DNA of 56,616 bases from contig QHSI01000100.1 of assembly GCA_003221515.1 (NCBI GenBank), positions 1 through 56,616 on the forward strand, in the 5' to 3' direction. Made by a program: the position numbers and the translations under genes. Below the pieces are notes generated by a model. That model was not told the origin of the DNA, made no database searches, and saw only the letters and a program-made list of their open reading frames with translations. Shown in pieces: positions 8,619 to 34,031 of this stretch. This stretch comes from Candidatus Rokuibacteriota bacterium. GTDB taxonomy: Bacteria; Methylomirabilota; Methylomirabilia; Rokubacteriales; CSP1-6. The stretch's first letter is position 1, and the number at the start of each line of letters is the position of its first letter.

Positions 8619-10310
8619 ATGAAAATCCGGACGAAGCTCTGCGTCGCCATCGTGTTCTCGCTCGTCGTCGCGCTGCCCGTCGCCGAGGCACGGGCGCAAG
8701 CCATGACCGTGACTCCCACGAGTCCCCTGATCGCCGTCGGCGAGACCCAGCAGTTCACGGCGAGAGGGAACTTGACCCCGGTCCACGTCTCGGCCAGCGG
8801 AGCCCACAGCTGCGCGCTGCTGCCGGACGGCACCCTCAGCTGCTGGGGCTACAACGAGTTCGGCCAGCTCGGCAACGGGACCACCGTCGACACCTCCACG
8901 GCGGTCGCGGTAGCCGGCATCACCGGCGCCACCGCCGTCTCGGCCGGCCATCACCACACCTGCGCGCTGCTAGGGGACGGCACCGTGCGGTGCTGGGGCG
9001 CGAACCAGTTCGGCCAGCTCGGCGACGGGACGGCGACCACCGATACCACCCCCGTTCCGGTCGCCGTCGGCGGAATCACCACCGCCGTCGCGGTTACTAC
9101 CGGCGCCTACCACGCGTGCGCGCTGCTGGCCGACGGCACGGTGCGCTGCTGGGGCTACAACGAGTTCGGCCAGCTCGGCAACGGCGCGACCGCCAGCTCG
9201 TCCACTCCGGTCACGGTCGCCGGGCTTGCCGCGCCCACCGTCGTGACGGCGGGCGCCTACCACACCTGCGCGCTGCTCGCCGACGGCGCGATACGGTGCT
9301 GGGGGCGGAACGACTACGGCCAGCTCGGCGACGGCAACACTCCTGACTCGCCCTCTCCCGTCGGCGTCTCCGGGCTGGACCCCGCCGCCGCCGTCACCGC
9401 GGGAGGCTTCCACACGTGCGCCCTCCTGCCGGACCGCAGCGTGCGGTGCTGGGGCCAGAACATCTTCGGTCAGCTCGGCGACGGCTCCTCGATCACGTTT
9501 CTCGTATCGGCGGAGGTCCTCGGACTCACCCCCCTCTACAGTTCGACCATTCCTCCCGGGAGCCACTCGCGGACGCCCGTGAAAGTTTCAGGCATCGGCA
9601 CGGCGACCGCCGTCACCGCTGGGGGCTTCCACACCTGCGCGTCTCTGTCGGACGGCTCGACGAAATGCTGGGGCGAAAATGACTACGGTCAGCTCGGCGA
9701 CGGCAGAAACAGCAACTCGTCCACACCGGTCGGCGTCACCGGGCTCGACCCCTCCGCCGCGGTCAGTGCCGGCGCCTGGCACACGTGCGCCCTTCTGCCG
9801 GACCGCAGCGTGCGGTGCTGGGGGCGGAACTTCGCCGGACAGCTCGGAAACGGGACCGTGAGCAACTCCTCAACGCCCGTAGCGGTGACCGGAAGCGGGC
9901 CCGCGACGTGGGCGAGCGACCAGCCGGCGGTCGCCACGATCGACCGGGCGACCGGGCTCGCCACGGGCGTCGGTCGCGGCTCCACGACGATCACCGCCAC
10001 CGCGAACGGCGCCAGCGGGAGCACGGCGTTGACCGTCGCGAACGCGGTCACCCTCGCCGTGGTCAGGGAGGGCGCGGGGACCGGCACCGTGAGCTCGACG
10101 AACTGCCCCGGGATCAGCTGTGGAACGGACTGCTCGGAGAATTATCCGAGCGGCAAGGTGGTCACGCTGGGGGCGGCGGCCGACGCCGGGTCGACCTTCG
10201 AAGGGTGGACGGGAGGTGGGTGCTCCGGCACGGCCGCCTGCACGGTCACCGTGACATCCAGCGCGACGATCGTGGCCAGATTCGGCACGGCGACGGAGCC
10301 GTCGCCGTGA
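8619..10310 (+). CDS. Secreted RCC1-repeat beta-propeller protein
   Basis: This 563-residue exported protein has a Sec signal peptide (1-28, ending ARAQA), a short Ig-like start and seven RCC1-type repeats. Each repeat follows the pattern CALLxDGxxxCWGxNxxGQLGxG and carries two cysteines, so disulphides in the periplasm or outside are likely. A bacterial Ig-like (BIG2) segment follows (WASDQPAVATIDRATGLATG). The C-terminus is a Cys-rich InlB-B/listeria-repeat-like domain (FEGWTGGGCSG). Start ATG 8619 has TAGGAG upstream. It lies 34 bp after the dehydrogenase and joins the next gene by a TGATG junction, so it is probably the distal part of the glycan operon. Role unknown; possibly an adhesin or matrix protein. 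Confidence 0.85.
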   Translation: MKIRTKLCVAIVFSLVVALPVAEARAQAMTVTPTSPLIAVGETQQFTARGNLTPVHVSASGAHSCALLPDGTLSCWGYNEFGQLGNGTTVDTSTAVAVAGITGATAVSAGHHHTCALLGDGTVRCWGANQFGQLGDGTATTDTTPVPVAVGGITTAVAVTTGAYHACALLADGTVRCWGYNEFGQLGNGATASSSTPVTVAGLAAPTVVTAGAYHTCALLADGAIRCWGRNDYGQLGDGNTPDSPSPVGVSGLDPAAAVTAGGFHTCALLPDRSVRCWGQNIFGQLGDGSSITFLVSAEVLGLTPLYSSTIPPGSHSRTPVKVSGIGTATAVTAGGFHTCASLSDGSTKCWGENDYGQLGDGRNSNSSTPVGVTGLDPSAAVSAGAWHTCALLPDRSVRCWGRNFAGQLGNGTVSNSSTPVAVTGSGPATWASDQPAVATIDRATGLATGVGRGSTTITATANGASGSTALTVANAVTLAVVREGAGTGTVSSTNCPGISCGTDCSENYPSGKVVTLGAAADAGSTFEGWTGGGCSGTAACTVTVTSSATIVARFGTATEPSP

Positions 10311-11980
10311 TGCGTCGACCGGCTCCGCGCGTGATATCCGGCGGCCGTTGGCTGCTCGTTTTCTCCGCTGCGCTTCTCGCTGCGATCGCGCTGGTCGTCA
10401 CGGTTAGCTTCGGTCAAACAGGGCGGCCGGCGAGCGGCCCGGAGCTCCCGCGCTCCTGTGTCGACACGAGCCTCGTGCCGCCCGCCGGCCGCACGATCGC
10501 GGTGGCCGCCGGTGGCGACTTCCAGGCAGCGCTCAAAGCGGCGCAGCCGGGTGACGTGATCACGCTCGAAGCCGGGGCGAAATTCACCGGCAACTTCACG
10601 CTCCCGAACAAGCCGGGCGCCGGCTGGATCGTCGTCCGGACCGCGGCGCCCGATGGTAGGCTGCCGGCGCCGGGCACGCGGGTCACGCCAGCCTCGGCGG
10701 GCGCGTTTCCGAAGCTGATCAGCCCGAACGGCCGGCCGGTGCTGACCGCGGCTCCCGGCGCCCATCACTACCGTTTCGTCGGCCTGGAGTTCACGGTCAC
10801 GCCGGACGTCGCCGGCTACGACCTCATCTCGTTGGGGAACCGGCCCGCCTCGGCGGCGGACGTGCCGCACAACCTGATCTTCGACCGGGTGTACGTTCAC
10901 GGCACTCCGACCGCGAACCTGCGGCGCGGGATCGCCCTGAACAGCGCCTGGACCGCCGTCGTCGACTCGCACATCAGCGACGTGCACGAGATCGGTGCCG
11001 ACTCTCAGGCGATCGGCGGCTGGGACGGCCCGGGACCCTTTCGGATCGTCAACAACCACCTGGAGGGAGCCGGCGAGAACGTCATGTTCGGCGGCGCCGA
11101 TCCCTCCCTCGCGAGCCTCGTGCCCTCGGACATCGAGATCCGCCGCAACCACTTCGTCAAGCCGTTGGCGTGGCGAATCGGCGACCCGAGCTACGCCGGG
11201 CGAGCGTGGACGGTCAAGAATCTTCTGGAGCTCAAGAACGCGCGCCGGGTGCTCATCGAGGGCAACCTCTTCGAACACAACTGGGCGCACGCCCAAGGGG
11301 GGACCGCGATCGTCTTCACCGTGCGCAACCAGGACGGGGGCGCGCCCTGGTCGGCGGTCGAGGACGTCACCTTCATCAACAACGTCGTGCGCCGCACCGG
11401 CGCGGGGATCGGAATGCACGGCATGGACAGCAAGCCGAGCCAGCCGACCAAGCGCGTGCTGATCAAGAACAACCTGTTCGAGGACGTGAGCGGTGCCCGC
11501 TGGGGTGGCGGCGGCCGGCTCTTCCAGCTCTACAACGGGGTGACGGACCTCGTGATCGATCACAACACGGCGTTCCAGGACGGGCCGATCATCATGGCCG
11601 AGGGCCGGCCGCATACGGGGTTCGTCTATCGCAACAACCTGGCGCCTCACAACGAGTACGGCATCCAGGGCACCGGCACCGCGCCGGGCAAGGGGACGCT
11701 CGACGCGTACTTCCCCGGCGCGGTCATCGAAATGAACGTGATAGTCGCCAATCCATACGTCGCGCAGTACCCGCCCAATAACTTCTATCCAGCGTCGCTC
11801 GCGGCGGTAGGCTTCGCGGAGCTGACCGGTGGCAACTACCGTCTTGGCGCCACCAGCCCGTTCCTGCGCGGCGGCACCGATCGCAAGGACATCGGCGCCG
11901 ACCTCGACGCGCTCGCGGCGGCGATGGCGGGAACCGCGGATTCGCGACGCGGGGGGTGCCGTCGTGCCGAGAACGACTGA
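10310..11980 (+). CDS. Secreted right-handed beta-helix protein (single unit)
   Basis: This 556-residue protein begins with a basic N-terminus and one hydrophobic segment (about 11-35), a signal peptide or signal anchor. The rest is one copy of the beta-helix unit that recurs through this region. Its landmarks are DFQAALKAAQPGDVITLEAG, FTGNFTLPNKPGAGW, APGAHHYRFVGLEF, IFDRVYVHG, VPSDIEIRRNHF, LELKNARRVLIEGNLFEHNW and FRNN-type rungs. The family resembles pectate-lyase-like parallel beta-helix proteins, which bind or cleave acidic polysaccharides. The ATG at 10310 shares its A with the stop of the RCC1-repeat gene (TGATG), so translation is probably coupled. The catalytic residues cannot be assigned with confidence. 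Confidence 0.85.
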   Translation: MRRPAPRVISGGRWLLVFSAALLAAIALVVTVSFGQTGRPASGPELPRSCVDTSLVPPAGRTIAVAAGGDFQAALKAAQPGDVITLEAGAKFTGNFTLPNKPGAGWIVVRTAAPDGRLPAPGTRVTPASAGAFPKLISPNGRPVLTAAPGAHHYRFVGLEFTVTPDVAGYDLISLGNRPASAADVPHNLIFDRVYVHGTPTANLRRGIALNSAWTAVVDSHISDVHEIGADSQAIGGWDGPGPFRIVNNHLEGAGENVMFGGADPSLASLVPSDIEIRRNHFVKPLAWRIGDPSYAGRAWTVKNLLELKNARRVLIEGNLFEHNWAHAQGGTAIVFTVRNQDGGAPWSAVEDVTFINNVVRRTGAGIGMHGMDSKPSQPTKRVLIKNNLFEDVSGARWGGGGRLFQLYNGVTDLVIDHNTAFQDGPIIMAEGRPHTGFVYRNNLAPHNEYGIQGTGTAPGKGTLDAYFPGAVIEMNVIVANPYVAQYPPNNFYPASLAAVGFAELTGGNYRLGATSPFLRGGTDRKDIGADLDALAAAMAGTADSRRGGCRRAEND

Positions 11981-14900
11981 TGGCGAGGAGCACCGTCGGC
12001 GGCGTCGCCTTCTGCGCGCTGCTGCTGGTGCCGCTCGGCCTCGCCCCGGCGGCGGCGCCGGAGCTTCCCCGCGTCCTCGTCGACACCACGTACACGCCGC
12101 CGGCCGGCCGCACCCTTGCCGTGGCGGCGTGCGACGATTTCCAGGCGGCGCTCGAGGCGGCGCAATGGGGCGACGTGATCACGCTCGAGGCGGGGGCGCG
12201 ATTCACGGGCAACTTCACGCTGCCCAACAAGCCGGGCACGGGCTGGATCACCATCCGCACCGCGGCTCCCGACGCGCAGCTGCCTCCGCCGGGGACCCGC
12301 ATCACGCCGGCTCACGCGGGCGTCTTGCCCAAGCTCGTCAGCCCCAACATCCATCCGGCGCTCACCGCGGCCCCGGGCGCGCACCACTACCGGTTCATCG
12401 GCATCGAGGTCACCGTTGCGTCCGACATCGTGATCAACTACGACCTCATCCTGCTCGGCAATCGCCCGGCCTCGCCGGCCGACGTGCCGCACGACCTGGT
12501 CTTCGACCGGGTGTACATCCACGGCCATCCGCAGGTGAACGCCCGGCGCGGCATCGCGCTGAACGGCGCCGCCATCGCGGTGATCGACTCCAGCATCATG
12601 GATTTCCACCTGCTTCTCGAAGACTCGCAGGCCATCGCGAGCTGGGACGGTCCCGGACCGTTCAAGATCGTCAACAACTATCTGGAGGCGGCCGGCGAGA
12701 ACGTCCTGTTCGGCGGCACCGATCCATCCATCCAGGGTCTCGTCCCGTCGGACATCGAGATCCGCCGCAATCACTTCGAAAAGCCCCTGACCTGGCGAGT
12801 CGCGGATCCGACCTACGCCGGCATGCCCTGGGCGATCAAGAACCACCTCGAGCTCAAGAACGCGCAACGGGTCGTCATCGACGGCAATCTGTTCGAGCAA
12901 AACTGGCCGGACGCGCAGGGCGGCACGTCCGTCCTGTTCACCGTTCGTAACCAGGACGGCACCGCCCCCTGGTCGACCGTCCAGGATGTGACGTTCACCA
13001 ACAACATCGTGCGCCGCACCGGATCGGCCATCGGGATGCATGGCTCGGACGACATCAACCCGAGCCAGCCGACCAGGCGCGTCTTGATCAAGAGCAACGT
13101 GTTCGACGACGTCCGCGCCGCCCGGTGGGGCGGCGCGGGCAGACTGTTCGAAGCATTCGGGGGGATCGAGGACCTCGTGATCGAGAACAACACGGGGCTC
13201 CAGGACGGTTCAATCCTCTACGCCGCCGGGGGTACCCACTCCGGCTTCGTCTTCCGCAACAACCTGGCGCCGCACAACGACTACGGCGTCCACGGCGAGG
13301 GCGCCGGGGTGGGCCTCGACAGCCTCAATCGGTATTTCCCCGGGTACGTGTTCGAGAAAAACATCCTCGCCGGCGGAGATCCGCTGCGCTATCCCCCTGA
13401 TGATTTCTTCCCGGCGTCGCTGAGCGACGTGGGATTCGTCGACCTGGCCGGCGGCAACTACCGGCTCTCGACGACGAGCCCGTACAAACGCGGAGGAACC
13501 GACGGGCGTGACATCGGGGCCGACATCGACGCCATCGAGGCGGCGACCGTCGACGTGAGGGGACCGAGCCGGCCGGAGTTTCCGCGCGCCTTCGTGGAGA
13601 CGACATACGTGGCGCCCACTGGCGCCACGCTCGCCGTGCCCGGGGACGGGGACCTCCAGGCAGCGCTCGACCTGTCGCAGCCGGGCGACGTGATCACCCT
13701 CCAGGCGGGCGCGACGTACACGGGGAACTTCACCCTCCCGAACAAACCCGGCGCGGGATGGATCGTCGTCCGCACGTCGGCGCCGGACTCGAGCCTGCCA
13801 CGCTCGGGGACCCGAATGACCCCGGCCTACGCCGGCGTCCTGCCAAAGATCGTCAGCCCGAGCTCCGGCCCGGCCCTCACGGCCGCTCCGGGCGCGCACC
13901 ACTACCGCCTCATCGGGCTCGAGTTCGGCGCGGCCGACGGCGTGGCGCTCAACTACGCCCTCGTCCTCATCGGCAACGGCGAGACCTCGTTCGACCAGCT
14001 GCCCCACCATGTGGTCTTCGATCGCGTCTACGTCCACGGAAGCCCGACGGTGAATCTGCAGCGCGGGATCGCGCTGAACGGCGCCTCGACCGCGATCGTC
14101 GACTCCCACATCGCGGAGGTGCACGTCGTCGGGGCCGATTCGAATGCGATCGCCGGCTGGAACGGCGCTGGCCCGGTCAGGATCGTCAACAACTACCTGG
14201 AGGCAGCCGGCTCGACGGTCCTCTTCGGCGGCATCGACCCGAGAATCGCGCACCTGGTTCCCGCGGACGCCGAAATCCGCGGTAATCACTTCCGCAAGCC
14301 ACTGGCGTGGCGGCCCGAGGACCCCGGCTACACCGGCACGCCGTGGCTGGTCAAGAACCACCTCGAGCTCAAGAATGCGCGCCGGACGCTCATCGACGGC
14401 AACGTCTTCGAGAACACCTGGCTCGACGTCGCGAGCGGAATGGGCATCGTCTTCCTGGTCCGCGACGAGGACGGTACTGCGCCCTGGTCGGTGGTCGAGG
14501 ATGTCACCGTCACCAATAACATCGTGCGGGGCGCCGGCTCGGGTGTCGGAGTGAGAGGTCGAGACGGCCTCTTCCCCAGCCTGCCCGCCCGGCGCATCCT
14601 GTTCGGCAACAACCTGTTCGACGACGTCAGCGGCTCACGGTGGGGCGGACCCGGCGCCTTGTTCGTGGCCTATGACGGGATCGCGGATCTAGTGATCGAG
14701 CACAACACTGGCTTCCAGGACGGCGCCGTCATTTACGCCGACGGCGCGCCGCACAGCCGCTTCGTCTACCGCGACAACATCGCGCCGCACAACGCGTATG
14801 GCGTCTCCGGCGCCGGGACCGAGCCTGGCACACAGACCCTCGACCGGTACTTCCCGGGCTACGTTCTCACGCGAAACGCTCTCGTCGGCGGGAGCCCATC

Positions 14901-15123
14901 GGCCTACCCGGGCGACAACTTCTTTCCCCTCTCGGTGAGCGAGGTCGGGTTCGAGGACTTCGCGGGCGGCAACTATCGCCTCTCCGCCTCGAGCCCTTAC
15001 AAGAACGGCGGCACCGACGGCAAGGATCCCGGCGCCGACTTCGGCGCGCTCGAGGCGGCGACGGCGGGAGCGCTATCGGGCGCGAGAAACGAGCCCGCGC
15101 TCGCCGGATGCGTCCGGCCGTGA
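11980..15123 (+). CDS. Secreted tandem beta-helix protein (two fused units)
   Basis: This 1047-residue protein carries a Sec signal peptide (1-22, MARSTVGG...) and two consecutive copies of the same beta-helix unit, residues about 23-525 and 527-1047. Each copy restarts with the block PELPRVLVDTTY / PEFPRAFVETTY, then QPGDVITL-type, FTGNFTLPNKPG and APGAHHYR motifs. This is an in-frame duplication or fusion of two ancestral genes. The ATG at 11980 shares a base with the preceding stop (TGATG), the second such junction in a row. It probably acts extracellularly on, or as scaffold for, the polysaccharide made by the upstream operon. Substrate and activity are not visible from sequence. Confidence 0.85.
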   Translation: MARSTVGGVAFCALLLVPLGLAPAAAPELPRVLVDTTYTPPAGRTLAVAACDDFQAALEAAQWGDVITLEAGARFTGNFTLPNKPGTGWITIRTAAPDAQLPPPGTRITPAHAGVLPKLVSPNIHPALTAAPGAHHYRFIGIEVTVASDIVINYDLILLGNRPASPADVPHDLVFDRVYIHGHPQVNARRGIALNGAAIAVIDSSIMDFHLLLEDSQAIASWDGPGPFKIVNNYLEAAGENVLFGGTDPSIQGLVPSDIEIRRNHFEKPLTWRVADPTYAGMPWAIKNHLELKNAQRVVIDGNLFEQNWPDAQGGTSVLFTVRNQDGTAPWSTVQDVTFTNNIVRRTGSAIGMHGSDDINPSQPTRRVLIKSNVFDDVRAARWGGAGRLFEAFGGIEDLVIENNTGLQDGSILYAAGGTHSGFVFRNNLAPHNDYGVHGEGAGVGLDSLNRYFPGYVFEKNILAGGDPLRYPPDDFFPASLSDVGFVDLAGGNYRLSTTSPYKRGGTDGRDIGADIDAIEAATVDVRGPSRPEFPRAFVETTYVAPTGATLAVPGDGDLQAALDLSQPGDVITLQAGATYTGNFTLPNKPGAGWIVVRTSAPDSSLPRSGTRMTPAYAGVLPKIVSPSSGPALTAAPGAHHYRLIGLEFGAADGVALNYALVLIGNGETSFDQLPHHVVFDRVYVHGSPTVNLQRGIALNGASTAIVDSHIAEVHVVGADSNAIAGWNGAGPVRIVNNYLEAAGSTVLFGGIDPRIAHLVPADAEIRGNHFRKPLAWRPEDPGYTGTPWLVKNHLELKNARRTLIDGNVFENTWLDVASGMGIVFLVRDEDGTAPWSVVEDVTVTNNIVRGAGSGVGVRGRDGLFPSLPARRILFGNNLFDDVSGSRWGGPGALFVAYDGIADLVIEHNTGFQDGAVIYADGAPHSRFVYRDNIAPHNAYGVSGAGTEPGTQTLDRYFPGYVLTRNALVGGSPSAYPGDNFFPLSVSEVGFEDFAGGNYRLSASSPYKNGGTDGKDPGADFGALEAATAGALSGARNEPALAGCVRP

Positions 15124-15145: not shown

Positions 15146-15169
15146 CTCGCGCTCACCGGAGCGAGTTGA
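15146..15169. terminator. Possible bidirectional hairpin between convergent genes
   Basis: Between the stop of the tandem beta-helix gene and the stop of the convergent minus-strand gene lies an imperfect inverted repeat (ACTCGCGCTC / GAGCGAGT, loop ACCG, with one bulge). It overlaps the last codons of the minus gene. No clear T-run follows on either strand, so termination activity is uncertain. Confidence 0.35.
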
Positions 15170-17642
15170 CGGCGGTGCGGAGCTCGTTGATCTGGCCCGC
15201 GTCGATGACGGTCTGCGCAGGCACGACGGTGGGGTCGGACCATGGGGGCAGAGTCTGGCCGGCCGTCTGGTAGAGCAGGATCATCGCTGAGCGGAGCTCG
15301 GTCAAGTGGACCACTTTCGCGTTGGTGAGCCCGGGTGTGAGCGTCGGGTCGGTCCAGTTGAAGGTCGCCAGCCCGTAGGCTGCGCCGACACTTTCAGTGG
15401 CCGTACGAAGCTCCGTGAGGTGCATCGCCTTGATGGGCGTGCTTCCCGGGGCCAGTGGATCGTCGCTGAACTTGAACGACAGCGTGACGGTCAGCGTGCG
15501 GGTCGCGATGTTGCCGGCGGCGTCGCGGGCGGTGACGGTCAGCACGTTCGTGCCGGGCTTGAGCCTGATCCCGCTGGCCGTCCAGCTCGTCGTCCCGGTG
15601 GCCGTTCCGCTGCCGCCCCGGCTGTTCATCCAGGTGACCTGGGTGACACCGACGTTGTCCGACGCGGGTCCTCCGATTGTGAGCGGCGTGCTGTTCGCGG
15701 TGTAGGTCGCGCCCGAGGTCGGCGTCGTGATGGTCACGGTCGGCGCCGTGGTGTCGTTCGTGACGGTCACGGTGACGCCGGCCGAGGTGGTGACGTTGCC
15801 GGCGGCGTCACGCGCGACTGCGGTGAGGGTGTGGGAGCCGTTCGGCACGATGGTGGTGTTCCAGGACGTGGAATAGGGGGACGTGGTGTTCTCGGCGCCG
15901 AGGGTTGCGCCGTCGAGCTTGAACTGGACCCCGACGACACCGACGTTGTCGGCGGCGGTCGCGTCGACGGCGACGGGTCCCGACATGGTCGCGCCGCCGG
16001 CGGGGGACGTGATGGAGACCGTCGGCGGCCCGGTGTCCGTCGGCGGCGGAGCGCTCGCACCGCCGGCGAACGCGGCGGTGATCGCGTCCATGTCCGCGCC
16101 GACGTCCTTGCCGTCGGTCCCGGCGTTCCGGTACAGGCTCAAGGCCGAGAGACGGTAGTTTCCGCCCTCGAGGTCGACGAAGCCCACGGCCGCGAGCGAG
16201 GCGGGGAAGAAGTTGTCGGCGGGATAGAGCGACGGGATGCTGCCCGCCAGGACGTTTCGCGCGAACACCGCGCCCGGGAAGTACGCGTTGAGCGTGGCGA
16301 CACCCTGGTTCGTGCCGTCCCCGGCGAACCCATAGACCCCGATGGGCGTGAGGTTGTTCGTATAGATGAAGCGGGTGTTGGACCCGTAGCCGGCCATCAT
16401 GCTGGCCTGGTCCATGAACCCGGTGTTGTGGTCGATGACCAGGTCGACGATGCCCCGCCAGTCGTTGAAGAGCCACCCACGCCCGAGGGCGCTGGTGTTG
16501 TCGTCGAAGAGGTTGTTCCGGATCAGGAAGCGGGCGCTCTGCTGGCTCGGGTTGAGATCGTCCCAGCCGTGCATGCCGAGGCTCTGGCCCACGTGGCGCA
16601 CGATGTTGTTGGTGAAGGTCACGTCCTGGACCACCGACCACGGGGCCGTGCCGTCCTGGTTGCGTACGGTGAACAGGACCGCGGTGCCCCCCTGGGCGGC
16701 GACCCAGTCGTTCTCGAACAGGTTGCCGTCGATCAGCACGCGCTGCGCGTTCTTGAGCTCGAGGTGGTTCTTGACGATCCACGGAATGCCGGCATAGCTC
16801 GGATCGCCCGCGCGCCAGGACAGCGGCTTGAAGAAATAGTTCCGCCGGATCTCGATGTCGGACGGTACGAGGTTGGCGACCGAGGGATCGGCCCCGCCGA
16901 ACAGCACGTTCTCGCCTGACCCCTCGATGTAGTTGTTGACGAGCTTGAATGGACCGGGCCCGTTCCAGCCGACGATCGCCTGGGCGTCCTGCAGGGTTGA
17001 ATGGAAGTCGGAGAGGTAGGAGTCGAGGACCGCGGTCCTGGCGTTGTCCAGTTGAATGCCTTGCTTGTAGTTTCCAGTGGGCGTGCCGTGGATATAGCAG
17101 CGATCGAACACGACGTCGGTCCCGGACGTGAGCGCGATGAGATTGTATTGCGTCGAGCTCGTGCCGCTGAGGGTCCCCGTGATCTCTACCCCGATGAAGC
17201 GGTAGTGGTGCGCGTTGGCGGCCGCCGCGAGGGCCGAGGATGAGTTGGCGGTCACGATCTTCGGCATCAGCGTGGCGTGTATGGGGCCGACGCGGGTGCC
17301 GGCGAGGGGCAAGCTCGCGATCGCCGAGGACTGGACGTAGATCCAGCCGGTGCCCGATTTGTACGGCAAGGTGAAGTTACCGGTAAACGTCGCCCCCGCC
17401 TGGAGCTCGATCACATTCCCGGGCTGCGCGGCATTGAGAGCCGCCTGGAAATCGTCCCCGGACGACACGGGGATGATGGAGCCCGTGGGCGGGACATACG
17501 TCGTGTCCAAAAACACCAGCGGGAGCTGCGGGGTCGCCGTCTGAGCGACGCCCGGTACGGGGCAGCCGAGGGTCGTAGTGATGACGGCGAGGAGAAGAGC
17601 GACGCTGGTGCTGATCCGGGCGTGACGGCTTCCCGAACACAT
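15153..17642 (-). CDS. Secreted beta-helix protein with Ig-like domains and C-terminal ELR repeats
   Basis: This 829-residue protein has a signal peptide (1-34, ending GVAQT) and one beta-helix unit (about 35-520) of the family shared with its neighbours. Two bacterial Ig-like domains follow (about 535-625 and 630-717; VTITSP/TPTSGATY starts and VTARDAAGN strands). The last 110 residues hold three copies of a short helix motif, HLTELRTA, HLTELRSA and QINELRTA, each preceded by W(T/S)DPT or a similar turn. The Ig and ELR parts suggest display or attachment at the cell surface. Expression is probably driven by a sigma-54 promoter and controlled by a c-di-GMP-I riboswitch immediately upstream, with AGGGGG as ribosome binding site. 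The enzymatic role, if any, is unknown. Confidence 0.87.
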   Translation of the reverse strand: MCSGSRHARISTSVALLLAVITTTLGCPVPGVAQTATPQLPLVFLDTTYVPPTGSIIPVSSGDDFQAALNAAQPGNVIELQAGATFTGNFTLPYKSGTGWIYVQSSAIASLPLAGTRVGPIHATLMPKIVTANSSSALAAAANAHHYRFIGVEITGTLSGTSSTQYNLIALTSGTDVVFDRCYIHGTPTGNYKQGIQLDNARTAVLDSYLSDFHSTLQDAQAIVGWNGPGPFKLVNNYIEGSGENVLFGGADPSVANLVPSDIEIRRNYFFKPLSWRAGDPSYAGIPWIVKNHLELKNAQRVLIDGNLFENDWVAAQGGTAVLFTVRNQDGTAPWSVVQDVTFTNNIVRHVGQSLGMHGWDDLNPSQQSARFLIRNNLFDDNTSALGRGWLFNDWRGIVDLVIDHNTGFMDQASMMAGYGSNTRFIYTNNLTPIGVYGFAGDGTNQGVATLNAYFPGAVFARNVLAGSIPSLYPADNFFPASLAAVGFVDLEGGNYRLSALSLYRNAGTDGKDVGADMDAITAAFAGGASAPPPTDTGPPTVSITSPAGGATMSGPVAVDATAADNVGVVGVQFKLDGATLGAENTTSPYSTSWNTTIVPNGSHTLTAVARDAAGNVTTSAGVTVTVTNDTTAPTVTITTPTSGATYTANSTPLTIGGPASDNVGVTQVTWMNSRGGSGTATGTTSWTASGIRLKPGTNVLTVTARDAAGNIATRTLTVTLSFKFSDDPLAPGSTPIKAMHLTELRTATESVGAAYGLATFNWTDPTLTPGLTNAKVVHLTELRSAMILLYQTAGQTLPPWSDPTVVPAQTVIDAGQINELRTAVNSLR

Positions 17643-17668
17643 GGTTCCCCCTTCGCGAGGAAGACCAT
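17641..17668 (-). promoter_or_regulatory. Hairpin that could sequester the ribosome binding site
   Basis: In the transcript, AUGGU (+ strand 17664-17668) can pair with ACCAU (17641-17645). The intervening CUUCC can pair with the GGGGG of the Shine-Dalgarno region, so the ribosome binding site and the first bases of the start codon would be buried. It lies directly after the riboswitch aptamer and is the likely expression platform (inference). Confidence 0.5.
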
Positions 17669-17689: not shown

Positions 17690-17781
17690 CCCCTCCTTCG
17701 GTTGCTCGGCTGTCAGGCTCGAGGCCTGACCCGTTGCTTTGCGTCCCCGCCTCACGACGGGTTTGCCCTTATCGGGAGGGG
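17690..17781 (-). ncRNA. Cyclic di-GMP-I (GEMM-I) riboswitch, copy 1
   Basis: Read on the minus strand this leader has the GEMM-I hallmarks. They are AAGGGCAAACC, then a P2 stem CCCGUC/GGCGGG closed by a GUGA (GNRA) tetraloop, then GGGACGCAAAGC. Next comes a perfect 7-bp P3 stem (GUCAGGC/GCCUGAC), and then AGCCGAGCAACCG closing P1 (CCUCC with GGAGG). The base corresponding to Vibrio Vc2 position 20 is G, as in c-di-GMP rather than cGAMP binders, and A18 and A47 equivalents are present. One deviation is GCAAAGCA instead of GCAAAGCC. It sits about 50 nt before the start codon of the 829-aa beta-helix gene. Confidence 0.88.
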
Positions 17782-17806
17782 TCTTCACTGGCGCCAGCGG
17801 CGGGGG

Positions 17807-17823
17807 TGCACGGAGGGTGCCAA
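17807..17823 (-). promoter_or_regulatory. Sigma-54 (-24/-12) promoter
   Basis: The minus strand reads TTGGCACCCTCCGTGCA, with GG and GC separated by exactly 10 bp and close to the consensus TGGCACG-N4-TTGCA. Transcription would start near 17796, only about 15 nt before the riboswitch aptamer, so promoter and aptamer are spaced as a working leader. The same arrangement recurs upstream of the 1768-aa gene. Confidence 0.82.
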
Positions 17824-17923
17824 GCAGCGGTCGTGGCTGATCGGAGCGCCTGAAATTCTGGAAATCACGGGGCTCGTCCGGCTGCGTAAGCGCAGATGAG
17901 CGGATTCGAGCGGGGCCACCGAA

Positions 17924-17970
17924 TGACACGGAGCTGTCACGCGGACGGTGACAGTGCCCATTCTGGCATC
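17924..17970 (-). promoter_or_regulatory. Candidate enhancer sites for the sigma-54 promoter
   Basis: About 130-175 bp upstream of the predicted start lie two interleaved dyads, CTGTCAC-N7-GTGACAG (17934-17954) and TGACA-N6-TGTCA (17924-17939). Next to them is the element TGCC-N6-GGCA inside CCATTCTGGCATC (17958-17970). The last 13-mer occurs again at the same relative place upstream of the other riboswitch gene (23690-23702). Position and symmetry fit binding sites for an NtrC-family activator; the actual protein is unknown. Confidence 0.55.
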
Positions 17971-18017
17971 GTCGTGTTCTTTCCGCGCACCCTGTACCGA
18001 AAATGAGTCGAGCGAGA

Positions 18018-18053
18018 GACCGCCTCCGCCCGCGTTCGCAAGCGGAGGCGGTC
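18018..18053 (-). terminator. Strong hairpin downstream of the 1768-aa gene
   Basis: A perfect 12-bp inverted repeat (GACCGCCTCCGC / GCGGAGGCGGTC, 12-nt loop) lies 27 bp past the stop of the minus-strand gene. Read in the gene's direction it is followed by a modestly T-containing stretch (TCTCGCTCGACTCATTTTC), so it is probably an intrinsic terminator or an mRNA end-stabilising stem. It also insulates the next minus-strand promoter. Confidence 0.7.
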
Positions 18054-18079
18054 TGCGCGTGGGTTGGCGCCGGCCAGCC

Positions 18080-21000
18080 TCAGTTGGGCTTCGTCTTGAA
18101 CGTGAAGTCGCGGGACACGGCCAGGTTGCCGGCGGCATCCCGCGACTTGACCCGGTAGTGGTACCGCGTGTTCGGGGCCAAGCCGCTCAGCGGCTGCGAG
18201 TGGCTCGTGACGAGGCTCGTGTTGAGCGGCGTCACGAGGCCGTAGCCCGTCGTCAGGCCGTACTCCACCTGTGAGTCGCTCGCCTTGTCTGTCGTCCACG
18301 TGATCTTGGCGCTAGACACGGTGATCGAGGACGCGGCAATGGCGGAAAGCACCGGCGGCGTGGTGGTAGCGCCGGTGCCTGAGAGCGCCGCCGTCTTGGA
18401 ACTTCCCGCCGCAGTGACCGTCAGCGTTCCCGTGGCGCTGCCGGACGTTGCCGGAGCGAACACCACGTAGGCATTGCAGTGGGTGCCCGGCGCCAGGACG
18501 CCGTTCCAGGTGGGTGTCGGGGAGCAATCGGTGCTGGAGAGCGCAAAGGGTCCCGAAACGGTGATGCTGCTCACTGAGACGCCGGTTGTGCCAGTGTTCG
18601 TCACCCAGACATTGCTCGCGGCGCTGGTTGTTCCGACGGTGACCGATCCGAAGGAGGCGCTCGTGGGCGACAGCGAGAAAGAGCCCGACGGCGGAGGCGG
18701 GGCCGTGATCGCGGCCGAGGCGTTGGCGGACTTGGTGGCATCGGCCACGCTCGTGGCGGTCACCGTTGCCGTGGCGTCGGCGCTGACTGTGGGAGCTGTA
18801 TAGAGCCCGGTGCTCGAGATCGTGCCCAGGCTGGCCGTCCAGGTCACCGCGGTATTGGTGGTACCGGTGACCGTGGCTATGAACTGCTGGGTTCCACCGG
18901 AAGCAACCGTGGTGCTGGTGGGCGAGACATATACCGCGATGGCGGGCGGCGGAGGCGGAGCCGTCGGCCGTGGGCCGTACTGGGGCATGGGCTGGCCGAA
19001 CTCGTAAGCGCCCAGGTCCGGTGCGGCTCCGGCGAAGCCATCGTTGATGTTTGCCAGGATTGTGCCGGCGTCGATGGCGTTACAGCCCGGCTTCAGGGTC
19101 ATGAACTGAGGCGGGATGGTGGTGGGCGGCGGACCGGGGACGTTGAAGGTTTCCATGCACGTGCTCTTGTTCACACGGATCCCGCGTGACTCAAGACCCG
19201 AGACCGCCGTCAGGCTGACGATGTCGGGGTAACCGACGCCTCCGTAAGTGAAGGGTGTGGAATAGGAGCCCCAGTCGAACCCGTTGTAGTTGAGATCGGT
19301 CCGCCAGCCCTTGAGCGACGCGTTGTCCATCGGCCAGATCGGGCCGCCGGTCGCGGAGATCCAGAGATTGTTCTTGCCGATCGCCTTCAGGATGTCGTCG
19401 CGGTCGATGCAGCAGGGCATGATGTTGGCCCAGTTGACGATCGTGTTGTGCACCAGCACGAACCGGTCGACCGTCCGGAACTTGAACGGGTTCTCGCTGA
19501 AGCTCACGAGCTGGTTGCGGATGAAGTACCAGGGCGCGCCCGACTGGGGCTGAAAGCTGATGCCGTTGTGCAGGGCCATGTGGACCCGGTTGCCCCAGAC
19601 GCGGATGTTGGCGCGGGCGGGATCCAGCTCGATGCCGTCGTCCGAGACATCGAAGATGTCGTTGCCATAGATGTCGACGTTGCTGTACGGGGCCGAGATG
19701 CCGTCGGCGACGTGCGTGATGCGGTTGTAGGCCACCACGTGTCCGGTGCTCGCGTAGTACGAGCCGTTCAGCTCGATGCCTTCGCCGTCGAAGCTCCCGG
19801 ACGCTGGATCGACGTCGCCGGTGATGTCGTTGTCGGTGATGTACCAGTTCGTGCCGCCTTGCTGGAGAAAGATGTTGTAGTGATTGTTGACGAACGTGGA
19901 CCGGGTGAGCACGACGTCGTCCGGAGCGTTGATCGAGAAGGTCGCGTACGCCTGGTTCCTGATCGTCAGACCTTCAAGCCAGATGTGGCTGGCCGCGATG
20001 TCGATGCCGAGGAACAGCGCCTCGCCGTCGCCAGCTCCTTTCCACACGATGTAATTGCCCGCGGTCCCCGGCTTGTTGAAGACGATCCGCCCGCCGTAGC
20101 TGCCGGCGTGGACGAGAAAGATGTCGCCTGCCTGGGCCACCGCTTGGGCGGCGGAGATCCCTCTGAACGGATTCGCGGCCGAGCCGTCGCCGCCGCCCGA
20201 CCCCGGCACGACGTTGAAGGTCCCTCCGGCGGTCGGCAGCGCAGGCACGGGGCGGGTCGCGACCGTCACGGTCCGGCTCTCGGCGCCGCCGTCCGGATCG
20301 TACAGGTCGAGCTTCACCTGATAGGTTGTGTTCGGATCGAGGAACAGGATGCTGCCGGCGAGCATGTTGGCGCCGTTGTAATCGACCCGGACGAGCGGCA
20401 GCGCGGACTTCCACGTGCTCGCGCCCTGGATCCGGTACTGAACCTCGACCGTGGCGTTGTGGTTGGGATCTCCGGCGATGTCCCACTCGACGCCGATCGA
20501 CTGGATCGTCGCGTAGCTTCGCAAGGCACCGGGCGTCGTCGCATTCGTCGGGTTCGGGATGACCGGGACGGCCAGCGTCGTGAAGGTGAAATCGCCTGAT
20601 ACTGTCAGAGCTCCCGAGGCGTCTCGCGACCGCACCCGATAGTGACAGAGCGTCCCCGCCGCCAGTCCGGTCAGCGTCTGCACGTGGGCGGTCACCAGCG
20701 TGGTGTTCAGCGGTGCCAGCGTCCCGTAGGCGGCGGTCAGGCCATATTCTACTTGCGAGTCGCTGGCCTGGTCGGTCGTCCAGACGATCGCCGCGCTGGA
20801 CGAGGTGATCGAGGACGCGGCAATGGCGGAAAGCACCGACGGCGTGGTGCTAGCGCCGGTGCCTGAGAGCGCCGCCGTCTTGGAGCTTCCCGCCGCAGTG
20901 ACCGTCAGCGTTCCCGTGGCGCTGCCGGATGTTACCGGAGCAGAGACCACGTAGGCACTGCAGTGGGTGCCGGGTGCCATGACGCCGTTCCAGGTGGGTG

Positions 21001-23386
21001 TCGGGGAGCAATCGGTGCTGGAGAGCGCAAAGGGCCCAGAAACGGTGATGCTGCTCACTGAGACGCCGGTTGTGCCGGTATTCGTCACCCAGGCAGTGCT
21101 CGCGGCGCTGGTCGTTCCGACGGTGACCGATCCGAAGGAGACGCTCGTGGGCGACAGCGAGAAAGAGCCCGACGGCGGAGGCGAGGTCGTGATCGCGGCC
21201 GAGGCGTTGGCGGACTTGGTGGCATCGGCCACGCTCGTGGCGGTCACCGTTGCCGTGGCGTTGGCGCTGACTGTCGGAGCTGTATAGAGCCCGGTGCTCG
21301 AGATCGTGCCCAGGCTGGCCGTCCAGGTCACCGCGGTATTGGTGGTACCGGTGACCGTGGCTATGAACTGCTGGGTTCCACCGGAAGCAACCGTGGTGCT
21401 GGTGGGCGAGACAGATACCGCGATGGCGGGCGGCGGCGTGGTGCTGGCTCCGGTGCCTGAGAGCGCCACCGTCGTGGAACTTCCCGCCGCATAGACCGTC
21501 AGCGTTCCCGAGGCGCTGCCGGATGTTAGGGGAGCAAACACCACGTAGGCATTGCAGTGGGTGCCGGTCGCCATGATGCCGTTCCAGGTGGACGTCGAAT
21601 AGCAATCGGTGCTGGAGAGCGCGAAGGGCCCCGAGACGGTGAGGGTACTCACTGAGACGCCGGTTGTGCCGGTGTTCGTCACCCAGACATTGCTCGCGGC
21701 GCTGATCGTTCCGACGGTGACCGATCCGAAGGAGACGCTGGTTGGCGAAACCGATACCGCGGTCGTGGTCGGCGTGGGAGCAGGAGGTGGAGGTGGAGGA
21801 TCTCCCCCGCAGGCTCCGCCGAGCGCACAGGCGGTCGCGGAATTCAGGGCGTTGAAATCGACACCGATATCGGTGCCGTCCGTGGCGGCACCCTTATAGG
21901 GGCTCAGGGCCGAGAGGGCGTAGTTGCCGCCCAGGAGGTCGACGAAGCCCACGGCATCGAGGGAGAGCGGGAAGAAGTTGTCGGGGGGAAAGCTCGACGC
22001 CGCGCCGCCGATGATGACACTGCGATCCACCACTGCGGGGGCGGTGCTCCCGACAAATCCAACGCCGTACGTCGGCGTGCCGACCTTGCTGATGTTGTTG
22101 GTGTAGGTCAAGGCCGTGTCGGTCCACGCAATCGCCCCGTCTTGGAAGCCGGTATTGTGATTGATGAGGAGGTTCGGAATTCCCCCGATGACCTGGAACA
22201 GCCGGCCATTCGCAAAGGGACCGTAGGTGGCGGCGCTGACGTCAGCGAACAGGTTGTTCTGGATCAGAAACCGTCGCGCGCCCGCGCCCTCCCCGCCCGA
22301 TATGCCGACGCCTTGGCCGATGTGGCGGGCGATGTTGTTGGTGACTGTGACGTCCTGGACGACGCACCACGGACAACCGCCGCCCTGGTTACGAGTTGTC
22401 AGAACGAAGGCGTTGGCCCCCTGCTGGCCGTAGGCGGCATTGGGGTCGACCCAGCAGTTCTCCAGCACGTTGCCGTCGATCAGGACCCGCTGCGCGTTCT
22501 TTAGCTCGAAGAGGTTCTTCACCGTCCAGTGGATCCCAACGTAATTGGAGCTCAGCGCCCACCATTGGAGCGGCTTCCGAAGCCAGTTTCCACGGATCTC
22601 GATGTCCGAGGGCACGAGGTTGGCGACGGAGGGGTCGGCCCCGCCGAACATGATGTTCTCGCCGGCGGCTTCGAGGTGATTATTCACAATCTTGAACGGA
22701 CCGCGGCCATTCCAGCCGATGATCGCTTGCGTATCGCGATCACCGGCGTGGATGTCGGAGATGTAGGAATCGATGATCGCCGTGCTGGCGTTGTTCAGGA
22801 GCACGCCCTGCTGGTAGGCCCCCCCCGGCGTGCCGTGGATGTAGGAACGGTCGACGACGAAGTTTGACCCGGTCGTGAACGCGACGAGGTTGGACTGGGT
22901 GTAGCTCTGGTTGGCGAGGGTGCCGGTGACCTCGATCCCGACCAAGCGGTAGAAGCTCGCCCCGGGGCCCGTCACGATAGCGGACGAGGAGTTGGGGGTC
23001 ACGATTTTCGGCATGCTCGCAGCGTTCGTCGGTCCGACGCGCGTGCCGGGGGGCGGGAGGCTGGCGAGCGCGGAGGACTGCACGTAGATCCACCCCGGCC
23101 CCGCGTTCGCCGGAAGGGTAAAGTTGCCAGTATAGGTTGCGCCGGCCTGGAGGATGATCGTGCCGCCGGGCTGGGAGGCGTTGAGCGCCGCCTGGAGATC
23201 ACCCCCGGCCCCGACGTTGATGACCGCACCGGTGGGCGACGCATAGGTCGTGTCCAGGAATACCTGCGGCAGCTGCGGTAACGTCGTCTGTGCGAGGCCT
23301 GGAACGGGGCGTACTACGAGCGTGGCGATCCCCGCGAGGAGAAGAGCAAGAGCGATGCGAGTGAGCCGGTGCCCCCCCAACGACAT
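18080..23386 (-). CDS. Giant secreted multidomain protein with two beta-helix domains
   Basis: This is a 1768-residue exported protein (signal peptide about 1-32, ending GLAQT). Domains in order: the family beta-helix unit (about 33-525); a Pro-rich linker; a HYDIN/choice-of-anchor-D-like domain (about 540-640); a BIG2-like domain (650-735); a second anchor-D-like domain (739-845); a fibronectin-III-like domain (850-942); and another FN3-like segment. A different right-handed beta-helix follows (about 1053-1465; AQAGDIFLVHAGSYGGRI), then another BIG2-like, anchor-D-like and FN3 set up to the end. The second helix resembles polysaccharide-lyase-type folds. It is probably an adhesive or polysaccharide-active surface protein. 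It has its own sigma-54 promoter and GEMM-I riboswitch. Two 632-bp stretches inside the gene are nearly identical. Confidence 0.88.
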   Translation of the reverse strand: MSLGGHRLTRIALALLLAGIATLVVRPVPGLAQTTLPQLPQVFLDTTYASPTGAVINVGAGGDLQAALNASQPGGTIILQAGATYTGNFTLPANAGPGWIYVQSSALASLPPPGTRVGPTNAASMPKIVTPNSSSAIVTGPGASFYRLVGIEVTGTLANQSYTQSNLVAFTTGSNFVVDRSYIHGTPGGAYQQGVLLNNASTAIIDSYISDIHAGDRDTQAIIGWNGRGPFKIVNNHLEAAGENIMFGGADPSVANLVPSDIEIRGNWLRKPLQWWALSSNYVGIHWTVKNLFELKNAQRVLIDGNVLENCWVDPNAAYGQQGANAFVLTTRNQGGGCPWCVVQDVTVTNNIARHIGQGVGISGGEGAGARRFLIQNNLFADVSAATYGPFANGRLFQVIGGIPNLLINHNTGFQDGAIAWTDTALTYTNNISKVGTPTYGVGFVGSTAPAVVDRSVIIGGAASSFPPDNFFPLSLDAVGFVDLLGGNYALSALSPYKGAATDGTDIGVDFNALNSATACALGGACGGDPPPPPPAPTPTTTAVSVSPTSVSFGSVTVGTISAASNVWVTNTGTTGVSVSTLTVSGPFALSSTDCYSTSTWNGIMATGTHCNAYVVFAPLTSGSASGTLTVYAAGSSTTVALSGTGASTTPPPAIAVSVSPTSTTVASGGTQQFIATVTGTTNTAVTWTASLGTISSTGLYTAPTVSANATATVTATSVADATKSANASAAITTSPPPSGSFSLSPTSVSFGSVTVGTTSAASTAWVTNTGTTGVSVSSITVSGPFALSSTDCSPTPTWNGVMAPGTHCSAYVVSAPVTSGSATGTLTVTAAGSSKTAALSGTGASTTPSVLSAIAASSITSSSAAIVWTTDQASDSQVEYGLTAAYGTLAPLNTTLVTAHVQTLTGLAAGTLCHYRVRSRDASGALTVSGDFTFTTLAVPVIPNPTNATTPGALRSYATIQSIGVEWDIAGDPNHNATVEVQYRIQGASTWKSALPLVRVDYNGANMLAGSILFLDPNTTYQVKLDLYDPDGGAESRTVTVATRPVPALPTAGGTFNVVPGSGGGDGSAANPFRGISAAQAVAQAGDIFLVHAGSYGGRIVFNKPGTAGNYIVWKGAGDGEALFLGIDIAASHIWLEGLTIRNQAYATFSINAPDDVVLTRSTFVNNHYNIFLQQGGTNWYITDNDITGDVDPASGSFDGEGIELNGSYYASTGHVVAYNRITHVADGISAPYSNVDIYGNDIFDVSDDGIELDPARANIRVWGNRVHMALHNGISFQPQSGAPWYFIRNQLVSFSENPFKFRTVDRFVLVHNTIVNWANIMPCCIDRDDILKAIGKNNLWISATGGPIWPMDNASLKGWRTDLNYNGFDWGSYSTPFTYGGVGYPDIVSLTAVSGLESRGIRVNKSTCMETFNVPGPPPTTIPPQFMTLKPGCNAIDAGTILANINDGFAGAAPDLGAYEFGQPMPQYGPRPTAPPPPPAIAVYVSPTSTTVASGGTQQFIATVTGTTNTAVTWTASLGTISSTGLYTAPTVSADATATVTATSVADATKSANASAAITAPPPPSGSFSLSPTSASFGSVTVGTTSAASNVWVTNTGTTGVSVSSITVSGPFALSSTDCSPTPTWNGVLAPGTHCNAYVVFAPATSGSATGTLTVTAAGSSKTAALSGTGATTTPPVLSAIAASSITVSSAKITWTTDKASDSQVEYGLTTGYGLVTPLNTSLVTSHSQPLSGLAPNTRYHYRVKSRDAAGNLAVSRDFTFKTKPN
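18321..18952 (-). repeat. 632-bp intragenic direct repeat, copy 1
   Basis: This stretch matches 20805-21436 base for base at roughly 95-96% by eye (about 26 differences, no gaps noticed). It encodes a BIG2-like domain followed by an anchor-D-like domain and the start of an FN3 linker. The near-identity suggests recent duplication or ongoing gene conversion within the gene. Confidence 0.85.
20805..21436 (-). repeat. 632-bp intragenic direct repeat, copy 2
   Basis: This is the partner of 18321-18952, in the same orientation and reading frame. A further, more diverged anchor-D-like copy without the BIG2 part follows at about 21437-21770. Recombination between the two long copies would delete the second beta-helix and leave an in-frame shorter protein. 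Confidence 0.85.
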
Positions 23387-23416
23387 CGTGGTCCCCCTTT
23401 GTGCGGAAAGACCACG
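23387..23416 (-). promoter_or_regulatory. Hairpin that could sequester the ribosome binding site
   Basis: In the transcript CGUGGUC (+ strand 23410-23416) pairs perfectly with GACCACG (23387-23393), which ends next to the AUG. The inner UUUCC can pair with GGGGG of the Shine-Dalgarno. It is the structural equivalent of the stem at 17641-17668 and the likely expression platform of the riboswitch. Confidence 0.6.
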
Positions 23417-23439
23417 TGTCCCGGGACGCTATCGCCCAT

Positions 23440-23525
23440 CCTTCGGCAGCCCGGCTGTCAGGCCCGAGACCTGACCCGCGGCTTTGCGCCCCCGCCTCAC
23501 GACGGGTTTGCCCTTATCGGGAAGG
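23440..23525 (-). ncRNA. Cyclic di-GMP-I (GEMM-I) riboswitch, copy 2
   Basis: The minus-strand leader shows a near-canonical GEMM-I aptamer. P1 is CCUUC/GAAGG, followed by AAGGGCAAACC. P2 is CCCGUC/GGCGGG with a GUGA tetraloop, followed by GGCGCAAAGCC. P3 is GUCAGG/CCUGAC, and the aptamer ends with AGCCGGGCUGCCG. The G at the Vc2 G20-equivalent position indicates c-di-GMP rather than cGAMP. It lies about 55 nt upstream of the start codon of the 1768-aa beta-helix gene. Large parts are identical to copy 1, showing the leader was duplicated together with the gene. Confidence 0.92.
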
Positions 23526-23548
23526 GGTCTTCGCTGCGGGAGGAACCG

Positions 23549-23565
23549 TGCACAGCGGGTGCCAA
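23549..23565 (-). promoter_or_regulatory. Sigma-54 (-24/-12) promoter
   Basis: The minus strand reads TTGGCACCCGCTGTGCA, with GG-N10-GC spacing. The predicted transcription start near 23538 lies about 12 nt upstream of the riboswitch. Layout and sequence match the promoter at 17807-17823. Confidence 0.82.
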
Positions 23566-23689
23566 GCAGCGGCTGTGCCCCACTCAAAGCGCTTCAAAAT
23601 CTGGAAATCGCAGGGGCTTGAATCGCTGCGTAGCGGCCGACAGGGAGTGTCCGAGCGGAGCGATTGACAAGTTCGACGTGCGCGCATGT

Positions 23690-32682: not shown

Positions 32683-34029
32683 TCAGCGGTCGATCCCGTA
32701 CTCTTTGAGCTTGCGCCATAGCGTGGTGCGGCCGATGCCGAGCGCCTCGGCGGCGCCGGAATGGTTGCGGCCGAAGCGCTCCAGCGTCTGGAGAATGTGG
32801 GCGCGCTCGGCGTCGGCGAGGCTGATCTGCCGCGGTAGGGCTGGTGAGGGGCCGAGCTGGATGCCGGCCGTCACGTGCGGCGGCAGGTCGTCAGGCTCGA
32901 CCGCGTCGCCGCGGGCCAGGATCGCGGCGCGCTCGATCGCGTTTTCCAGCTCGCGCACGTTGCCGGGCCACGGATAGCGCAGGAAGCGCTCGAGCGCCTC
33001 CGGTGACAGGCGCAGACTCCGGCCGAGCTTGCCCGCCGACCGCGCCAGGAAGTGCTCGGCCAGCGCCGGAATGTCCTCACGGCGGTCCCGCAGCGGCGGC
33101 AGCACGATCTGGATCACGTTGAGCCGATAGAAGAGATCTTCGCGGAAGGTTCCTTGGCCGATCAGCGCGGCCAGATCACCGTGGGTTGCCGCGATCACGC
33201 GCACGTCGATCGTCGCCGGCTGCGTCGCGCCGAGCCGGCGGACCTCGCCGCTCTGCAGCGTGCGGAGCAGCTTCACCTGAAGTGCCGCCGGCATCTCGGC
33301 GATTTCGTCCAGGAACAGCGTGCCGCCGTCCGCCTCCTCGAACAGACCGAGCTTGTTGACGGCGGCGCCGGTGAATGCGCCCCGCATGTAACCGAACAGC
33401 TCGGACTCGAGCAGCGTCTCGGGCACCGCACCGCAGTTCACCGCCACGAACGGGCGCGCCGCTCGCGCGCTGGCGTGATGTACCGCCTTGGCGATGACTT
33501 CCTTGCCGGTCCCCGACTCACCCTGGATCAAGAGCGTGGCGTCGGTCGGCGCCACCCGCTCCACCAGGTCGAGGACGGTGTGCATGGTCGGCGACTGCGC
33601 GATCAACCCGGGCAGGCCGTAGCGCTCACGGAGCTGGGCGCGCAGGTTCTGGTTCTCGCGGCGCAGCGCGCGTCCGGCCAGCGCGATGTCGATCCGGTGA
33701 AACAGCTCCTCGGGCTCCTGGCCCTTCTCGAAGTAGTCGAGGGCGCCTAACCGGATCGCCTCCTTGGCCGACTTCCACTCGGCGTAGGCCGTCAGGAGGA
33801 TCACCTCGGTCGCGGGCGCGTGGGTCTTGGCCGCCCGCAGCACGTCGAGGCCGTCGCCGTCCGGCATTCTCAGGTCCGTGACAACGAGGTCGAAGACCTC
33901 CTCGGTGAGGCGCTTGGTCGCGGTGGTGACGCCGTCGGCCTCGACCACGCGGTGGCCGCGCTTGCGCAGCAGCAAGGCCAGCGTGGTCCGCGCCGAGAGC
34001 TCGTCGTCGACGACCAGGAAGTGGGCCAT
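32683..34029 (-). CDS. Sigma-54-dependent response regulator, NtrC family
   Basis: This 448-residue regulator has three parts. A receiver domain has acidic pocket D8/D9 and phosphoacceptor Asp52 (VTDLRMPDG). An AAA+ domain has Walker A GESGTGKE at 170-177, the sigma-54 contact loop GAFTGA at 217-222 and [11 protein letters not shown]-terminal Fis-type helix-turn-helix ends the protein ([22 protein letters not shown]). It activates sigma-54 RNA polymerase from distant sites when phosphorylated. The partner kinase gene precedes it by 2 bp. Likely targets include the sigma-54 promoter at 35621, which has two dyads at enhancer distance, and possibly the riboswitch-controlled beta-helix genes; both are inference. 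Confidence 0.95.
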
Positions 34030-34031
34030 CG

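Follow-up and report, generated by a model that had tools for sequence, protein, structure and literature searches.

Two c-di-GMP-I riboswitches behind sigma-54-type promoters precede secreted beta-helix genes in a Rokubacterial genome

Introduction

Which signals govern the two giant secreted beta-helix proteins encoded at this locus, and do these signals place the proteins in a c-di-GMP-dependent programme for the cell exterior? Rokubacteria are uncultured, and the host studied here is a soil bacterium. The window, i.e. the whole stretch of DNA that was analysed, comprises 56,616 nt of contig QHSI01000100.1 (GCA_003221515.1) from Candidatus Rokuibacteriota (GTDB Rokubacteriales; CSP1-6); it is one contig of a 5.10-Mb genome that is 95% complete. 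An earlier note had proposed GEMM-I-type control of both genes and had named their products as candidate biofilm matrix components. Nothing in the literature searched links Rokubacteria to riboswitches.

Aptamers and their ligand

A cmscan of the whole window returned exactly two RNA elements, both belonging to the c-di-GMP-I clan and both on the minus strand, together with which the following genes have to be considered:

23441..23521, minus strand: c-di-GMP-I aptamer of the 1768-aa gene (RF03167 75.0 bits, E 5.3e-16; RF01051 71.5 bits; G20/A47/C92)
18080..23386, minus strand: gene of the 1768-aa secreted protein, with a beta-helix (1-525), Ig/ASH and fn3-like domains, a second beta-helix (about 1150-1300), Ig/ASH and fn3-like domains
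17696..17776, minus strand: c-di-GMP-I aptamer of the 829-aa gene (RF03167 64.4 bits, E 5.7e-13; RF01051 64.6 bits)
15153..17642, minus strand: gene of the 829-aa secreted protein, with a beta-helix (1-540), Big_7/Big_13 Ig domains and C-terminal HLTELR repeats
9785..15123, plus strand: two aptamer-less genes, which together contain the beta-helix domain three more times

Both copies exceed the gathering cut-offs of RF01051 (35 bits) and RF03167 (59 bits), which bears out the GEMM-I assignment of the earlier note, where no strand was given. The aptamers had been placed about 50 nt before the two genes, and the distance from aptamer end to ATG is indeed 54 nt for the 1768-aa gene and 53 nt for the 829-aa gene. 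The GNRA cap ascribed to P2 was found as well, its loop reading GUGA. A perfect P3, claimed for both copies, is present in the 23.4-kb aptamer, whose P1, P2 and P3 are fully paired without any defect in the cmscan alignment, but not in the 17.7-kb aptamer, where P3 contains two non-standard A.A pairs (model pairs 39-73 and 42-70). The aptamers are real, strongly supported and mostly of a known kind. In total, the host genome contains five c-di-GMP-I-type aptamers including these two, and at least one was found in 35 of the 57 genomes of the host's family, summing up to about 98. The host genome further encodes six GGDEF proteins.

With the known c-di-GMP-I riboswitches (GEMM-I, RF01051) the window copies share the aptamer fold, the GNRA-capped P2 and the G20/A47/A48/C92 pocket. 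G20, A47 and C92 (3IRW numbering) are among the key ligand contacts (PMC3764141). All three are present in both window copies. C92 occurs in 85/85 leaders of the host's family and A47 is constant across them (79 tallied by script; five rows with GCAAAG and L090 read by eye). Position 20 is G in all but four family leaders (L104, L108, L114 and L115 have A), with L086 read by eye as G. In GEMM-I aptamers, an A at this position is associated with recognition of cGAMP and marks the 3',3'-cGAMP-selective GEMM-Ib class; the earlier note had rightly read a G at the selecting position of both copies.

The best Rfam label for both window copies is the variant c-di-GMP-I-GGC (RF03167), which belongs to the same clan as RF01051, has equal helix lengths and matches all five host-genome copies above its cut-off. 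This raises the question if the window aptamers are representatives of this variant that sense another ligand. At model position 37, which we equate with position 47 and infer from the consensus to be the base naming the variant, RF03167 has a consensus G, whereas both window copies and the family leaders have A. Moreover, the RF01051 scores are almost equal to the RF03167 scores, G20 and C92 are canonical, and aptamers of Desulfosarcina and Desulfobacterales with A47 are also labelled GGC, so that the label alone says little. We therefore rejected the GGC identity and regard a different ligand as very unlikely. Given the canonical contact bases, both aptamers are expected to bind c-di-GMP.

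Sigma-54-type promoters

The more informative part of these leaders is absent from the earlier note: a promoter, an upstream box and a hairpin that sequesters the Shine-Dalgarno (SD) sequence. The first two map as follows:

23600..23609, minus strand: conserved box GATTTCCAGA, candidate activator site, about 42 nt upstream of the -24 element
23550..23564, minus strand: sigma-54 -24/-12 promoter TGGCACCCGCTGTGC, by the family motif
17857..17866, minus strand: conserved box GATTTCCAGA, candidate activator site, about 42 nt upstream of the -24 element
17808..17822, minus strand: sigma-54 -24/-12 promoter TGGCACCCTCCGTGC, by the family motif

Directly upstream of both window aptamers we found sigma-54-type promoters (TTGGCACCCGCTGTGC and TTGGCACCCTCCGTGC). 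The strict motif TGGC-N8-TGC is present in 60 of the 84 family leaders, at -62 to -18 relative to the aptamer; shuffled controls gave a mean of 0.3 (maximum 2), and neighbouring windows gave 0-1. The relaxed -24/-12 core GG-N10-GC was detected in 79/84 leaders versus a shuffle mean of 18.5. The host genome encodes one RpoN and about 25 sigma-54 activators, which together with this core is consistent with transcription by RpoN.

The location of the family's copies mostly behind a sigma-54 promoter distinguishes them from the c-di-GMP-I riboswitches known so far. We searched for the strict promoter-aptamer pattern across 84,980 species and obtained 61 matching stretches, mainly in Rokubacteria and Desulfobacterota, with a few in Nitrosomonas and individual cases from further phyla. 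Many of the cases outside Rokubacteria precede fn3-like secreted proteins (fn3-type surface proteins in Desulfobacterota; in Nitrosomonas, too, the targets are secreted proteins), and many have other expression platforms. In five other genomes, each picked for holding one such case, only 7 of the 23 c-di-GMP-I aptamers carry a sigma-54 promoter. This speaks against a general GEMM-I trait, and near-complete coupling is, as far as tested, a feature of Rokubacteria. No paper joining GEMM-I with sigma-54 promoters was found in the literature searched, which covered few subscription journals, and the coupling appears undescribed.

At both window promoters and in most of ten other box-bearing leaders, the box GATTTCCAGA precedes the -24 element by about 42 nt. 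Nine genomes of the host's genus contain 11 combinations of box and promoter (reversed-pattern control, 0). In the host genome, the combination is restricted to the two beta-helix genes; several of the other cases in the genus are beta-helix genes as well. The box is a candidate binding site for one enhancer-binding protein. A possible activator of both promoters is encoded about 9 kb away from the riboswitch genes, namely the NtrC-type protein (receiver-AAA-Fis) at 32683-34329, which adjoins a histidine kinase (the pair spans 32683-35357).

The box and promoter were also seen before genes that lack an aptamer (L215, L217 and L220), one of which encodes a 492-aa response regulator. In L216, L219 and L224, the sigma-54 promoter is intact and the aptamer behind it has decayed, with beta-helix genes downstream in L216 and L219; these are cases of natural riboswitch loss in which the promoter was kept.

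Expression platform

In all five host-genome leaders (5/5), the SD sequence is hidden by a hairpin just 5' of the start codon. Its anti-SD strand GGUCUUCC can alternatively pair with the sequence flanking the aptamer on the 5' side (GGAAGACC), to which it is likewise complementary, and so form a helix termed P0. The elements in the window are:

23526..23532, minus strand: 5' flank strand GAAGACC (P0), able to pair with the anti-SD strand
23387..23416, minus strand: anti-SD/SD hairpin CGUGGUCUUUCC...GGGGGACCACG just before AUG, by folding and permutation of strands
17780..17786, minus strand: 5' flank strand GAAGACC (P0)
17643..17668, minus strand: anti-SD/SD hairpin AUGGUCUUCC...GGGGGAACC just before AUG, by folding and permutation of strands

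For the leaders with standard spacing (n=61), we swapped strands among leaders in 10000 permutations, a procedure that does not fully remove shared ancestry. The true pairs were better than all 10000 permutations both for P0 (-12.55 versus a permuted mean of -10.94) and for the SD hairpin (-14.60 versus -12.71). Among 18 diverged leaders, the true value was reached by 105/10000 permutations for P0 and by 0/10000 for the SD hairpin. P1 was likewise supported (27 and 49 of 10000 permutations), and control pairings were not significant, their values being reached by 13-89% of permutations. Since both competing helices beat permutation, the shared strand can choose between the SD sequence and the 5' flank. 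Such a three-strand exchange platform (5' flank, anti-SD, SD) is a further difference from c-di-GMP-I riboswitches known so far. An anti-P1 hairpin was also considered as the switching element; we rejected it, as 2118/10000 permutations reached its value in the diverged leaders.

The two strands GAAGACC/GGUCUUC form an inverted repeat around the aptamer at the DNA level, and the 5' flank has a strong consensus, as would befit a protein-binding site, in which case the RNA hairpin alone would work. Against this, the flank covaries with the anti-SD strand in diverged leaders (GGAGACC/GGUCUCC in L050 and L113, GGAGAGCC/GGCCUCC in L117, GCGGAGC/GCUCCGC in L093) and begins near the expected sigma-54 transcription start, which makes a DNA-level role of the repeat unlikely.

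According to our proposal, a leader of about 160 nt would be transcribed from the sigma-54 promoter, starting near GAAGACC, once an enhancer-binding protein has activated transcription. It would fold into the c-di-GMP-I aptamer and end in the hairpin hiding the SD sequence. The anti-SD strand could pair either with the SD sequence (OFF) or with the GAAGACC flank, forming P0 beside P1. By holding P1 closed, c-di-GMP would favour P0 and free the SD sequence, so that translation would probably be ON at high c-di-GMP.

Equilibrium folding of full leaders revealed no switching: the SD hairpin is energetically favoured with or without P1, and the unpaired probability of the SD sequence is 0.146 in the free leader versus 0.136 with P1 forced. 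In transcripts cut before the SD sequence, P0 forms in nearly all cases, again irrespective of P1. Equilibrium folding is thus uninformative as an arbiter of ON and OFF, and the switch would need to act kinetically, unless its direction is reversed. In the reversed case, the same riboswitch and platform would turn translation OFF upon c-di-GMP binding, for example for lyases that aid biofilm exit at low c-di-GMP; the preference for the SD hairpin in both states would agree with this, as would the similarity of the beta-helix fold to polysaccharide lyases including RbmB, the V. cholerae matrix lyase. On the other hand, the conserved P0 lies outside P1 on the same 5' strand, and a stabilised P1 should favour P0 rather than the SD hairpin; moreover, the co-regulated glycosyltransferases and adhesin-like proteins of relatives fit high c-di-GMP. 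An OFF switch is therefore possible, if doubtful, and we infer a translational, co-transcriptional switch that is likely to be ON with c-di-GMP.

Beta-helix proteins

Both the 1768-aa and the 829-aa protein have signal-like N-terminal segments. An AlphaFold model of the beta-helix domain of the 829-aa protein (pLDDT 67, pTM 0.76) adopts the right-handed beta-helix fold that is characteristic of PL6, and PL6 alginate lyases were the best Foldseek match (AlyGC, E 9e-6), followed by GH28, chondroitinase-type PL6 and RbmB (E about 1e-3). The window proteins differ from PL6 alginate/chondroitin lyases and RbmB in that identity is 10-15%, TM-scores are low and extra Ig-type domains are present. All five window paralogues have E295, K297 and R327 without variation; these residues are a lead towards a putative lyase site, which in PL6 combines catalytic Lys/Arg with calcium, rather than a test of one. 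By sequence, the matches in the PDB were confined to Ig domains. A CBM6 domain is present on L085 (G004), a riboswitch-linked beta-helix homologue.

Since the modelled fold resembles polysaccharide lyases most, the proteins are no less likely to be enzymes that modify the matrix than to be structural parts of it. The neighbouring glycan operon of the earlier note is supported by glycosyltransferases, an asparagine synthase and a UDP-glucose dehydrogenase encoded at 1.3-8.6 kb. Such neighbours would suit a secreted protein that acts on exopolysaccharide as an enzyme or binder at least as well as a structural protein. The two proteins may hence be matrix-modifying enzymes rather than the matrix components proposed in the earlier note.

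Two further observations concern neighbouring proteins. The 829-aa protein shares its C-terminal HLTELR-like repeat module (window 15153-15500) with other secreted proteins of riboswitch-bearing genomes (L084; L008, 12577-13923), with no Pfam match seen. Just before the plus-strand beta-helix genes, an RCC1-repeat protein with Ig and InlB-like domains is encoded at window positions 8646-10310.

Beta-helix homologues were identified in 14/57 family genomes. Besides the two window genes, an aptamer directly precedes homologues at G013:C49, G004:C49 and G015:C111, so that the leader-gene pairing sought in other genomes does exist; at G007:C145 the aptamer lies about 0.3 kb upstream, and decayed aptamers with the same promoter precede other homologues (G017:C740 and a second G015 copy). 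Most homologues, including the three plus-strand domains in the window, have no aptamer, which is incompatible with riboswitch control of all beta-helix genes. The suggested c-di-GMP control of this beta-helix family as a whole is thus too broad: the pairing seen at the two window genes is real and recurs in relatives without characterising the family.

Could the leaders be passive relics of a recent gene duplication at the locus, devoid of regulatory function? The two cassettes are duplicates, and decayed aptamers occur in relatives (G017:C740, G015:C111:285309 and G019:C152). Yet pocket, promoter, hairpin and P0 are kept across many genera before unrelated genes, and the 23.4-kb copy is free of pairing defects, which renders this explanation extremely improbable.

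Genes downstream of the aptamers

The other three aptamers of the host genome precede genes for an M11-type metalloprotease (L006), an fn3/ASH/InlB-repeat protein (L007) and an fn3/ASH/Big_7/LamG protein (L008). Pfam analysis of 77 downstream proteins in the family yielded fn3 (14), Big_7 (13), response-regulator receivers (13), ASH (9), InlB-like repeats (8), glycosyltransferase 2 (4), sigma-54 activators (3), LamG (3), M11 protease (3) and PilZ (2). A hydrophobic N-terminal segment was detected in 59/85 downstream proteins by a simple hydropathy test, which is crude and includes membrane proteins, and type IV pilin-like N-termini (FTLIELMIVVAIIGILAAIAIP) were found in the proteins of L053 and L065. 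Secreted Ig/fn3/LamG proteins thus make up most of the targets, joined by response regulators, glycosyltransferases and pilins. The surface and biofilm-type targets that the earlier note had in mind are hence matched by a surface regulon among relatives. This target set is of the kind known for GEMM-I, which is found before surface, motility and signalling genes.

GEMM riboswitches before secreted fn3 surface proteins are known from Geobacter, according to the accessible text of PMC2996986 and PMC13194489, and such proteins are also the commonest target type here. Geobacter belongs to another phylum, and that text mentions neither a sigma-54 link nor beta-helix targets. New here are the beta-helix target family, the sigma-54 coupling and the three-strand platform.

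Aptamers also stand directly before single-domain response regulators (L066, L074, L077, L080, L089, L099 and L102), several of them with short leaders; such pairs possibly constitute feedback in signalling.

Conclusions

We are fairly confident in the explanation as a whole, in which a sigma-54 promoter, a c-di-GMP aptamer and an SD exchange would together control secreted proteins with a binding, trimming or building role in the extracellular matrix. Whether Rokubacteria possess a surface regulon with two keys is more evenly balanced: sigma-54 and its activators would set the presence of the mRNA and the c-di-GMP riboswitch its translation, riboswitches before sigma-54 activators or PilZ genes would close the loop in some genomes, and the coupling would recur in Desulfobacterota and Nitrosomonas. 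From sequence alone, a candidate c-di-GMP regulon emerges from about 100 leaders in which promoter, sensor and platform can be read. This regulon names candidate matrix proteins and enzymes, and it makes joint control of the cell exterior by sigma-54 and c-di-GMP accessible to testing.
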